From: Bdellovibrionales bacterium
Lineage (GTDB): Bacteria > Bdellovibrionota > Bdellovibrionia > Bdellovibrionales > Bdellovibrionaceae
Reading direction: 5' to 3'
NCBI GenBank assembly: GCA_018266295.1
Contig: JAFEAQ010000004.1
Span: 558,001-622,000, forward strand
Length of the DNA stretch: 64,000 nucleotides
This document shows positions 28,201 to 32,557 of the stretch, piece by piece. The stretch's first letter is position 1; the number at the start of each line of letters is the position of its first letter. Both the position numbers and the translations under genes were made by a program. Under the pieces are notes generated by a model, which was not told where the DNA came from, made no database searches, and saw nothing but the letters and a program-made list of their open reading frames with translations.

Positions 28201-28228
28201 GGGCTGCCCTAATCGGCAGTCCTTTTTT
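28201..28228 (+). terminator. Terminator after the XRE regulator
   Basis: GGGCTGCC pairs with GGCAGTCC (one G-U pair) and is followed by eight T. It sits just beyond the stop codon of the converging EamA gene. Confidence 0.85.
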
Positions 28229-29096
28229 TTGCCTTTTGCAGGGTAATGACGTTACCGGCAAGACAGAGCACGATCCCGGTAGCGATTTCCGGAGTCCAGT
28301 GAAAGTTCTCAAAGAAAGACGATAGAGTCAGCGCAATCACGGGGCTCAGGATACTTGTGTAAGACGCTTTCTCAGCGCCTATACGGCCTACCAGCGACAG
28401 ATAGGCACCGAAGGCGATGACTGAGCCAAAGACCGCAAGATACAGCAAGCTGACCGTGTACTTCAGGGTCCAGTCGGCATGAAAACTTTGTTGCAAAACG
28501 AGACCCACTAAAAAAGTAAAAATACTTCCATAGAGCATCCCAAACGCATTTGAAGACATCACCGGAATGTTTTCTTTGCGATGAACGTAAGAAATCAGAT
28601 TTCCTGCAGAGGCAAATACGGTCGCTACAGCGCCCACAACCAAACCCCAGAGAGAAGTGGAGCCGGATTTGAAACTCAAAATCTCTTGCAGAAAAATGAG
28701 CCCGATGCCGAGGCCTCCGATGACAGCTCCGAAAATTACGTTTCGTCGAACGGGGGTTCGAAATAGAAGCCAGGTTCCCAAAATATTATAATAAAGTAGC
28801 AATGTGAAAGTGACTGCCACCATGCCCGAGCTGATCAGTCCTTCAGCCACATAGGTCAGCATATAGTTCACAGAGAACATGCAAATACCTTGCGCTAGAA
28901 ACCAGCGGTGGTGTTTTAACTTAAAATCAAGTGGGAGTCGGAACGCTTTGCAAGCGATGAGTAGAAGAACAGCTGAAATCAGAAAGCGGTAAAAGACTGA
29001 GGCAACCGGTGAGGCGGCTCCAAGTTGGAAGGTGATTACTAACCAAGTGGAGCCCCAAATTAAAGTACAGAGAAGGTAAAGAACTAGGTTTCTCAG
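28209..29096 (-). CDS. EamA/DMT-family transporter with probable CTG start
   Basis: About 295 residues when read from CTG 29096. The first ATG in frame (28880) would remove the first two or three membrane helices. The upstream frame encodes a perfect EamA N-terminus (CTG-encoded start, then RNLVLYLLCTLIWGSTWL) and stays open until just past the upstream gene. GAGGA lies 6 bases before the CTG. The full length gives two EamA repeats with about ten helices, as normal for the family. EamA proteins export amino acids, metabolites or drugs. The gene overlaps the last bases of the GcvH-like gene, so they are coupled. Confidence 0.8.
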   Translation of the reverse strand: MRNLVLYLLCTLIWGSTWLVITFQLGAASPVASVFYRFLISAVLLLIACKAFRLPLDFKLKHHRWFLAQGICMFSVNYMLTYVAEGLISSGMVAVTFTLLLYYNILGTWLLFRTPVRRNVIFGAVIGGLGIGLIFLQEILSFKSGSTSLWGLVVGAVATVFASAGNLISYVHRKENIPVMSSNAFGMLYGSIFTFLVGLVLQQSFHADWTLKYTVSLLYLAVFGSVIAFGAYLSLVGRIGAEKASYTSILSPVIALTLSSFFENFHWTPEIATGIVLCLAGNVITLQKAKKRTAD

Positions 29097-29098
29097 AC

Positions 29099-29494
29099 CT
29101 AGTCCTCATCCTCTTCTTCGTCATCCTCGTCCTCATCGTCGTCGTCATCCTCATCTTCATCCTCGTCATCGAGGTCCTCGGATGCTTCCACGCGGATGAG
29201 CCAGCCTTCTTCAAAAGGATCTTCTTGAATTAGAGTTGGATCGTCGATCACAGCAGAGTTCACTTCGAGAACTGTGCCGGAAACCGGTGAATAGATGTCC
29301 AGCGGACCGTCGTCTGTTTCAACAGTCCCGCAAACTTCGTCAGCTTCAACTTTGTCGTTTTCAGCTGGAAGGTCGACGGAAGTGATTTCTTCGAAATCTG
29401 CAAGGCCCTCTTCGTTGATACCAATAGTGATGATGCCATCCTCTTCTTGGATCCACATATAGCCCATAAAATTTCTTACATCATTGGATGACAT
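29099..29494 (-). CDS. GcvH-like protein lacking the lipoyl lysine, with a poly-acidic tail
   Basis: 131 residues. The N-terminal 100 align with the glycine cleavage H protein (GYMWIQEEDGIITIGINEEG, then DLPAENDKVEADEVCG and IYSPVSGTVLEVN). Where H proteins have the lipoylated Lys of the ESVKA motif, this has Asp62 (VETDDG). Residues 109-131 are all Asp or Glu. No gcvT or gcvP is nearby. It probably uses the lipoyl-domain fold for another job, perhaps as a binding or regulatory protein. AGGAG precedes the ATG. It lies between the EamA transporter and glnA on the same strand, 9 bases from glnA. Confidence 0.85.
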   Translation of the reverse strand: MSSNDVRNFMGYMWIQEEDGIITIGINEEGLADFEEITSVDLPAENDKVEADEVCGTVETDDGPLDIYSPVSGTVLEVNSAVIDDPTLIQEDPFEEGWLIRVEASEDLDDEDEDEDDDDDEDEDDEEEDED

Positions 29495-29503
29495 AACTCT
29501 CTC

Positions 29504-30919
29504 CTAGATATCGTAGTACAAATGGAATTCGTAAGGCACCGGGCGCTGCTGAACAGGACGAACCTCACGATCAATCTTGTAATTGATCCATGTTTCCAGC
29601 AAATCGTCACTGAAAACATCGCCTTTTTTCAAGAATCCGCCATTATTTTTCAAATTCATCAAACTTTCTTCGAGAGTTCCAGGCACCGCAGGAATTCCTG
29701 CAGCCTCTTGAGGAGAAAGTCCGTAGATATCCTTATCCAAAGGATCACCCGGGTGAATTTTATTGATGATACCGTCAAGACCCGCCATCAACACAGCTGC
29801 TTGCGCTAAGTAAATGTTCGCAGAAGGATCTGGAGTACGGAATTCAATACGTTTTGCTTTTGGATTTGGACCAGAGTTTGGAATACGCATTGCCGCAGAA
29901 CGGTTTTTGAAGCTGTATGCCAATTTGGTCGGAGCCTCGAACCCAGGAACCAAACGTTTATATGAGTTTGTTGTTGGATTGATAATACCGCAAAGTGCAG
30001 GAGCATGCTTCAAAACACCACCGATGTAGTAAAGAGCCAATTCGGAAAGACCTGCATACTTATTGCCCGCGAAAAGATTTTTGCCATCTTTCCACAGAGA
30101 CATATGGATGTGCATTCCAGAGCCGTTGTCATTGAACAAGGGCTTTGGCATGAATGTCGCAGTTTTCCCATGACGGCGAGCTACGTTTTTCACGATGTAT
30201 TTAAACCACATCATTTTATCGCCCATTTCAAGCGCTGAATCATAACGGAAGTTGATCTCTGCTTGTCCCGCAGAAGCCACTTCGTGGTGATGACGTTCAA
30301 CGATCATACCGGCGCGCTCAAGCTCCAAGCACATTTCAGTGCGGATATCTTGTTGAGTGTCGGTAGGAAGAGCTGGGAAGTAACCTTCTTTTTGGCGGAT
30401 TTTGTAACCGAGATTGCTGCCGCCTTCGTCGCGTCCTGTGTTCCAAGCCGCCTCTTCGCTATCAATCATGTAGAAACCAGAATTGTTGGTTTGTTCATAG
30501 CGAACGTCATCGAAGATGAAGAACTCGGCCTCAGGACCGAAGTAAGCTGTATCTGCAATACCAGTGGATTGCATGAACGCAACCGCGCGTTTCACCACTT
30601 GGCGCGGATCGCGGTCGTAAGGTTGAAGCGTTTCAGGCATGCAAACGTCGCAAATGAAATGCAGGGTCGGTACTTGCATGAAAGGATCCATTTTCGCAGT
30701 CGAAGGATCTGGCAAGATGATCATGTCAGATTCTTCGATTCCGCGCCAGCCGCGGATAGAGCTGCCATCAAAACCCAATCCATGTTCAAAGATTTCCATG
30801 CTGAGTTCAGCAAATGGGATGGTGATGTGTTGCCAAGTTCCGACTAAGTCACAGAACTTGAGGTCGACCATGCGGGCGCCTTTATCTTTACCGAATTGCA
30901 GAGCTTGTTGTGCGTTCAT
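29504..30919 (-). CDS. glnA: Glutamine synthetase type I
   Basis: 471 residues, the length of bacterial GSI. Signatures: [10 protein letters not shown] near residue 50, PEAEFFIF in the active site, [27 protein letters not shown], and the NRSAAMRIP substrate region. The IYGLSPQE segment has a Tyr where adenylylation occurs in GSI-beta, so control by GlnE is possible. It makes glutamine from glutamate and ammonia. The ATG follows AAGGAG. Directly upstream is glnB, and downstream are the GcvH-like and EamA genes. Confidence 0.97.
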
Positions 30920-30934
30920 ATGTCTCCTTTATGA

Positions 30935-31279
<345 letters not shown>

Positions 31280-31485
31280 TCAAGTTATTAGAACGATAGC
31301 AAATTTGGCTTTTTAGTCAAAAGCCACCATCGTTAACGCAAGACAAAATAATTCGAGTAAATACCCGAGAAATTTTCTAAAATTGCTTCAATTCTGAATT
31401 CAATCGCTTGCGGGCCTATGTGGTTTCTGGTACACACTCGAGCACTGCAAAAAGCTTATTGTTGTCGCAATTTCGGGGGGGATTC

Positions 31486-32085
31486 ATGACTACAACGCGT
31501 TTTTTTGTCTATGGTTCATTGTGCGAGGGGATGGTTCACTTTTCTAAGATTCAAAGTTTTATTGAATCTTCTGTTCCAGCTCAGATCCGCGCCACAGCCT
31601 ACAGACTTAAAGTCGGTTTTCCTGCTCTGATTAATTCTGGAGCAGATTTGGTTCCCGGTCATCTCGTTGAATTACGCTCTTCAGATCTTTTGATTGCTCT
31701 TTTAGATGAGTTTTTTGGCTATAATCAGCAAGATCCGTCTAAAAGCCTCTATCATCGCCAAGAAACTCTTGTGTCCATCGAGGGCGAAAACGTTGAAAAA
31801 GCGTGGGCTTACTTCTTGAATCCAATGAAGTTGCCGGCAAATGCAACGCCAATTCATGGCGGAGATTGGCAAAAGTCCCTCGAGGACCAGCCGGCAATGA
31901 CCCAAAAGCTGACTGATAAGCAGAAATGCTACATTTCTAAGCTAGGGAACTCTTCTGGGCGTGAGATCGTACCTATCGACTTACAACTTTACAGAGAACT
32001 CATGAACTTAGAGCTGATCGTAGACAAGGGCCGAAGACTTGCGCTATCTAAGCTCGGTCATGAAGTCTACAGACACCTTGCCTAA
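31486..32085 (+). CDS. Gamma-glutamylcyclotransferase-fold protein with C-terminal winged helix
   Basis: 199 residues. The N-terminal 110 have the AIG2/GGCT pattern (RFFVYGSLCEGMVHF glycine-rich start, then DLVPGHLVELR and EKAWAYFLNP). The C-terminal part (about 140-199) reads like a winged-helix module (LTDKQKCYISKLG, then a wing ending ALSKLGHEVYRHL). This is an unusual fusion. The natural start is ATG 31486 after a G-rich ribosome binding site; the frame is open from 31408. It overlaps trmL by 26 bases, so the two are coupled. The function could be glutathione or gamma-glutamyl-amine turnover, or a regulator that binds such compounds. Confidence 0.75.
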   Translation: MTTTRFFVYGSLCEGMVHFSKIQSFIESSVPAQIRATAYRLKVGFPALINSGADLVPGHLVELRSSDLLIALLDEFFGYNQQDPSKSLYHRQETLVSIEGENVEKAWAYFLNPMKLPANATPIHGGDWQKSLEDQPAMTQKLTDKQKCYISKLGNSSGREIVPIDLQLYRELMNLELIVDKGRRLALSKLGHEVYRHLA

Positions 32086-32557
32086 GCCGACATTCAAAAT
32101 TGTGCTCATCGAGCCCGAGATCCCACAAAACACGGGGAACATCGGGCGTACGTGCGTAGCTACGAACTGTGAGCTTCATGTTGTTGGCAAAATGGGCTTT
32201 GAGATCAACGATAAAAATTTGAAGCGTGCGGGCCTCGATTATTGGCCGCATCTGACCTGGTATCGCCACGAGACCTTCGAAGATTGGTTGAAGCTTGTGA
32301 CGGATCCAACGCGCATGTGGCTTTTCACCACGAAAACTCAGCGCACCTATTTTGAACCGCAGTATCAGCCTGGAGATTGGTTTGTTTTCGGAAAAGAGAC
32401 CAAGGGTCTTGCTCCGGATTTCTTGGCGAAGTTTCCAAATCAGACCCTCACCATTCCGATGATCGGTGAAGGCGCCCGTAGCTTGAATCTCGCTACTAGT
32501 GTTGCGATTGCGGCCTACGAAGGTGTGCGCCAACTGGGTTTTTGCCAGAAGACATAA
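32060..32557 (+). CDS. trmL: tRNA (cytidine/uridine-34 2'-O)-methyltransferase
   Basis: 165 residues, SPOUT-class methyltransferase. Motifs include IVLIEPEIPQNTGNIGRTC, FGKETKGLAPDFL and IPMIGEGARSLNLATSVAIA, which build the trefoil-knot AdoMet site. TrmL methylates the wobble base of leucine tRNAs. ATG 32060 gives a short lead-in before the first strand; the frame also holds a TTG at 32039. It overlaps the cyclotransferase-like gene by 26 bases. Confidence 0.93.
   Translation: MKSTDTLPKPTFKIVLIEPEIPQNTGNIGRTCVATNCELHVVGKMGFEINDKNLKRAGLDYWPHLTWYRHETFEDWLKLVTDPTRMWLFTTKTQRTYFEPQYQPGDWFVFGKETKGLAPDFLAKFPNQTLTIPMIGEGARSLNLATSVAIAAYEGVRQLGFCQKT

Follow-up and report, generated by a model that had tools for sequence, protein, structure and literature searches.

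A GcvH paralogue without the lipoyl lysine, linked to glnA in Bdellovibrio-like bacteria and retained where that operon is gone

What does a carrier protein do once the residue that carries its cofactor has been lost, and why should its gene stand directly behind that of a glutamine synthetase? The question is raised by a 131-residue open reading frame with an ATG start (29099-29494, reverse strand) in the 64-kb stretch of Bdellovibrionales DNA analysed here, which we call the window. The frame encodes a GcvH paralogue that automatic annotation would tend to label a glycine cleavage H-protein, although its missing lysine makes that function very unlikely. It is the third gene of a series on the reverse strand, with glnB first (PII, 30935-31273; Pfam P-II, 110.9 bits) and glnA second (a type-I glutamine synthetase, GS-I, 29504-30919; TIGR00653, 651.5 bits, above the cut-off). 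The gaps are 15 nt between glnB and glnA and 9 nt between glnA and the paralogue, whose Shine-Dalgarno-like AGGAG (29501-29505, reverse strand) overlaps the glnA stop codon (29504-29506). An EamA-type transporter gene follows on the same strand (28209-29099), as it does at 31 loci, and its frame is open from the stop of the paralogue, so that the EamA frame listed at 223 aa is really about 296 aa long. No ATG, GTG or TTG stands near the expected start of this transporter (positions 29090-29099); a CTG just past the stop of the paralogue is a candidate start. An earlier note on this DNA had placed the four genes in one unit. A conserved block diverges from them on the forward strand: a GGACT/AIG2-like gene (31408-32085; Pfam GGACT), which is present also at loci without glnBA, and a SpoU-family methyltransferase gene (32039-32557; Pfam SpoU_methylase), identified by domain and synteny and presumably a TrmL.

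The membership of the protein in the GcvH family is not in doubt. It matches Pfam GCV_H with an E-value of 2.3e-25 (89.3 bits against a cut-off of 22.2), over residues 13-108, and falls below the NCBIfam cut-offs for GcvH equivalogs (79 against 115.85 bits for TIGR00527; 84.9 against 117 for NF002270). Its score for Biotin_lipoyl is 16.5 bits, under the cut-off of 22.1, so that its family is GCV_H and it does not rank as a homologue of the biotin carrier protein BCCP. The AlphaFold model of the core (residues 12-108; 29171-29461, reverse strand) resembles GcvH, with a pLDDT of about 92-95 over residues 11-100. The best 22 Foldseek matches in the PDB are all GcvH proteins, the nearest being 1onl (TM 0.74, rmsd 1.5). 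What has changed is the site of modification. The genome has a canonical GcvH with its lysine on another contig (C11:988575-988934), after a gene whose sequence we read as GcvT, and Asp62 of the paralogue (codon 29309-29311, reverse strand), which is followed by Gly63, aligns with the lipoyl lysine of that protein. Strands 54-60 and 63-69 flank this point, which would place residues 61-62 at the tip of the hairpin and suggests that an X-Gly turn has replaced the one that bears the lipoyl lysine. The motifs of a working H-protein have gone as well: of the HEW and C-terminal helix motifs, Y8, H12, E13 and LM..Y are absent and W14 alone is kept, and in the alignment an acidic or variable tail takes the place of the canonical helix residues. 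The clear lipoyl-domain fold described by the earlier note, its replacement of lysine by Asp62 and its wholly acidic stretch at residues 109-131 thus all stand.

The same replacement runs through the order. Lysine is found at the lipoyl column in none of 112 aligned paralogues, compared with six of six canonical GcvH proteins; the residues there are D (68), Q (19), E (10), S (7), N (6), G (1) and T (1), and the next residue is glycine in 110 of the 112. No lysine of the hairpin is conserved among these sequences, and Cys55, the sole cysteine of the window protein, is present in 53. The alignment represents about 110 distinct genomes, since it includes L003 and L004, whose contigs equal those of G060 and G047 in length and which were excluded from the neighbourhood and dN/dS counts. 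In close pairs the core is strongly constrained: dN/dS lies between 0 and 0.055 in seven disjoint pairs with dS below 0.75, whereas pairs above that value give 0.08 to 0.59 and are near saturation. With the fold retained, the lysine gone in all 112 sequences and a canonical GcvH elsewhere in the genome, the description of the protein as a repurposed carrier domain was well founded.

Our sampling comprised a protein search of 66 genomes of the family and 140 of the order, a profile search of 368 genomes of the phylum, and fetches of the regions concerned. The paralogue was found in 115 of the 140 order genomes; the other 25 show that it is not essential everywhere. No phylum-wide count was made, since members from other classes overlap canonical GcvH in score. 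Outside the phylum, a single-sequence query gave two proteins among the matches listed (L005 and L006), both of which have the lysine. A tree of 98 rows separates 66 paralogue-side rows from 32 canonical or third-copy rows with a support of 99/99 when all columns are used. The same split appears with the hairpin columns removed (SH-aLRT 85), in a tree that rests on few columns and whose bootstrap is not fully settled. The paralogue side includes lysine-less proteins of other classes together with four proteins of f22, a distant family in another class. The paralogues are thus one phylum-wide subfamily of single origin, separate from lipoylated GcvH, and the lysine is absent from most of this old subfamily. 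It is not absent from all of it: the four f22 proteins examined all have lysine at the lipoyl column, so that modification may persist in some of its members, and two of three members of family f11 (L158 and L159) have a lysine one residue before that column. Homologues with lysine at the site, which the earlier note had named as counting against its reading, are thus absent from the order and present in this one distant family of another class. Other genomes of the same family as the window have a third GcvH-like copy (L150-L155), in which the lipoyl column is occupied by R (3), K (2) or L (1). This copy retains a canonical-type N-terminal motif and the C-terminal helix and groups separately in the tree, next to canonical GcvH.

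How firmly is the gene tied to nitrogen metabolism? Across the order the locus has secA (a name read from the sequence), the TrmL-like gene and the GGACT gene on one strand and, facing away from them on the opposite one, glnB, glnA and the paralogue. By tblastn, glnA lies upstream on the same strand at 63 of 109 fetched loci, which corresponds to 63 of the 66 fetched GS-I genomes. With the window and G115 added, the linkage holds in 65 of 68 genomes that have both type-I GS and the paralogue, G077, G078 and G089 being the exceptions. Counts based on open reading frames are lower (60 of 110 neighbourhoods including the window, or 59 of 109, against 63 of 109 by tblastn). At loci without a glnA frame, 39 of 50 paralogues are still beside the same divergent genes, a figure from frame clustering, in which a few glnA genes go undetected. 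Where the paralogue belongs to another family of the order (L102, L104, L132, L139, L145, L162 and others), a block of genes that we take to encode SpoVR, a YeaH-like and a PrkA-like protein is often convergent with it. Altogether, 43 fetched genomes retain the paralogue without a type-I GS, many of them in the same family as the window. The glnA linkage is thus real among GS-I carriers, and its loss in close relatives, which the earlier note had named as counting against its reading, does occur.

The genomes that lack GS-I are informative because of what replaces it. Type-I GS and GS-III never occur together in the 140 order genomes (G000-G139) and are mutually exclusive there, yet the paralogue accompanies both, being present in 68 of 74 genomes with the former and 41 of 44 with the latter. 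The regulators do not follow. GlnE is present in 67 of the 74 type-I genomes and in none of the 44 with GS-III. Among the 41 GS-III genomes that carry the paralogue, PII was not detected in 34 and gave weak matches in seven, strong PII matches among paralogue carriers being confined to type-I GS genomes. In 22 GS-III genomes of at least 95% completeness the paralogue is present and no PII was detected. The paralogue is thus found where PII, GlnE and type-I GS have all gone, which rules out each of them as its sole partner. An adaptor of GlnB and GlnA was accordingly dropped as the core role, since genomes devoid of GS-I, PII and GlnE still have the gene. So was a PII-carrier role, conceived by analogy with the binding of PII to BCCP (PMC5080355), as PII is missing in many genomes that have the paralogue. 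Of the adaptor linked to nitrogen metabolism that had been suggested earlier, the operon linkage survives and the core role does not.

In a cross-tabulation, 109 of the 118 genomes that encode GS-I or GS-III have the paralogue, as do six of the 22 others (Fisher p = 2.8e-6 for genomes of at least 90% completeness, a value that ignores the non-independence of the genomes). In this table G027 and G057 are counted as having no GS and are probably outside the sample; G027 in fact carries a 784-aa GS, and a weak GlnA match in G107 (E 6e-34) was omitted. We did not retain GS presence as a correlate, given that nine of the 16 genomes with neither GS nor paralogue have a short GS-like frame and that the genomes are not independent. 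Such a frame, of 352-387 aa, stands in place of type I or type III in the small genomes G095, G096, G102-G105, G123, G124 and G126.

In other classes of the phylum the paralogue heads a different operon, comprising genes for a HisKA protein, MiaB, a gamma-carbonic anhydrase and GuaB (the last three names read from the sequences). The HisKA-protein gene is directly downstream at 13 of 19 other-class loci, and 13 of 19 have a MiaB-like gene no more than about 3.4 kb away, some of these contigs ending too early for the neighbours to be judged. For this downstream gene, present at L202 and related loci, HisKA was the sole domain detected in the one example scanned and HATPase was not found; the product is possibly a degenerate histidine kinase.

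In the acidic tail all 23 of residues 109-131 (29102-29170, reverse strand) are Asp or Glu, encoded by GAT (7), GAC (7), GAG (6) and GAA (3); the use of all four GAN codons shows that this is no simple run of one trinucleotide. The tail is the low-confidence part of the AlphaFold model. Within family f1 the median acidic fraction is 0.82 in the 30 members without glnA and 0.90 in the 33 that have it, and in glnA-linked members of other families, whose tails are short, it is 0.45 (n=31). In that family the tail is thus nearly as acidic without glnA as with it, and we discarded the idea that it takes part in an interaction with GS: it tracks lineage and not glnA linkage, and is probably a lineage-specific accessory. 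Long acidic tails occur also in some members from other classes (L176, L180 and L186).

The main rival to the interpretation that we favour is a GS-directed role able to use either type of enzyme. The paralogue would then act on glutamine synthetase, or on GlnB where that is present, as an adaptor or effector with a role like that of the small GS-inactivating proteins. The strength of the glnA linkage, the 9-nt gap in the window and the presence of the paralogue in nearly all genomes with GS-I or GS-III all speak for such a role, as does genome G028, in which a GS-III gene lies 104 nt downstream of the paralogue; together with the glnA linkage this might point to a GS-related job that GS-III can use. 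That adjacency is, however, seen in just one of the 41 GS-III carriers, and those 41 genomes, which have no GS-I, argue against an effector specific to the type-I enzyme. Converse cases exist as well: G071-G073, for example, lack the paralogue but encode type-I GS and PII, and in the f12 genomes G182 and G244, which encode a long GS-III-like GS, the sole GcvH is one with the lysine. Retention of the paralogue without PII and GlnE, its other operon in other classes and the independence of its acidic tail from glnA weigh in the same direction, and we consider a GS effector unlikely.

A further reading makes the protein a decoy H-protein, whose target of regulation would be the glycine cleavage system or the enzymes of lipoylation. 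It does descend from GcvH, and GcvP is found in most paralogue-bearing genomes. We nevertheless think a decoy quite improbable: the HEW and C-terminal helix motifs of canonical GcvH have been lost, and 11 genomes with the paralogue have no GcvP match, among them G101 (100% complete), G050 and G118 (94%), although drafts can miss genes. In addition, small genomes (g42, g46, g57 and g58) have GcvP and no paralogue, and no linkage to gcv genes appeared in the neighbourhoods surveyed. Least probable of all is continued service as a covalent carrier, with the attachment moved to a different residue or the attached group changed. The lysines of the f22 proteins, and those of L158 and L159 one residue earlier, give it some footing. 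In the order, though, every one of the 112 sequences has D, Q, E, S, N, G or T in the column, without a conserved hairpin lysine to take over, and Cys55 is present in only 53 of them; we regard this reading as very unlikely indeed.

We think it somewhat more likely than not that the paralogue is a non-lipoylated pseudo-carrier whose role is that of a subunit for binding or assembly, its main partner being neither GS-I, PII nor GlnE. Its persistence where the rest of the nitrogen operon is gone is what suggests that it is probably such a subunit. On this interpretation a copy of GcvH would have arisen once, near the base of the phylum, and would have lost its lipoylated lysine, the hairpin tip becoming a tight X-Gly turn, along with the HEW and C-terminal helix motifs. 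Judged from its sequence, the resulting protein is probably not lipoylated and probably works by binding other proteins, as a scaffold or assembly subunit. In lineages with type-I GS it would be produced together with GlnB and GlnA, probably through translational coupling. The indispensable partner is probably something else, still to be found and present in GS-III genomes too, and the acidic tail would be an accessory added in particular lineages. Whatever the partner, predatory Bdellovibrio-like bacteria have long possessed this gene and maintain it strictly. It amounts to a deep natural experiment, in which a carrier fold without its cofactor site is held under strong selection across a phylum of predators. 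It is also a reminder that a conserved linkage to glnA can mislead, for the GS-I, PII and GlnE module is swapped for GS-III and the linked gene remains. Our literature search, which covered the titles and abstract openings of open-licence papers, found none on the lysine-less paralogue; its match to a CASP13 paper (PMC6851490) proved unrelated.

Among known systems, the protein shares fold and sequence family with GcvH (PF01597, TIGR00527), from which it differs in the absence of the lipoyl lysine, the HEW motif and the C-terminal helix motif, in scoring below the TIGR00527 cut-off and in its position outside the gcv operon. Like GcvH-L (5a35) and the 'not_gcvH' family TIGR03077, it is a divergent protein of the GcvH fold; its score against TIGR03077, which we take to be a chlamydial family, is 52.5 bits with a cut-off of 144.05, and both of these groups presumably retain the lysine. 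A GcvH-like protein can have a role beyond glycine cleavage, as PMC6067878 indicates for LbpA, the lipoate-binding protein of sulfur oxidation. LbpA is lipoylated, however, and has a conserved lysine and two conserved cysteines, whereas the paralogue has no such lysine and the single Cys55. A parallel is found in plants, in BADC, a homologue of BCCP that lacks the biotinylation motif and is described in PMC11926652 as the 'glue' of the acetyl-CoA carboxylase complex; the same paper reports that an inhibitory role has been proposed too. BADC belongs to the BCCP family, works in the plastid and has a known partner, in all of which it differs from the paralogue. The two are alike in having a carrier fold without the modified lysine alongside an intact carrier in the same genome, BADC being non-catalytic. 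By analogy, then, BADC with BCCP offers a precedent for the paralogue as an assembly subunit. A broader proposal, which we put forward tentatively and hold with less conviction than the binding role itself, is that an undescribed, phylum-wide subfamily of lysine-less GcvH proteins may serve as a general assembly or signalling subunit in two operons, glnB-glnA in Bdellovibrionia-type genomes and HisKA-miaB-carbonic anhydrase-guaB elsewhere, and so may be a bacterial counterpart of BADC.
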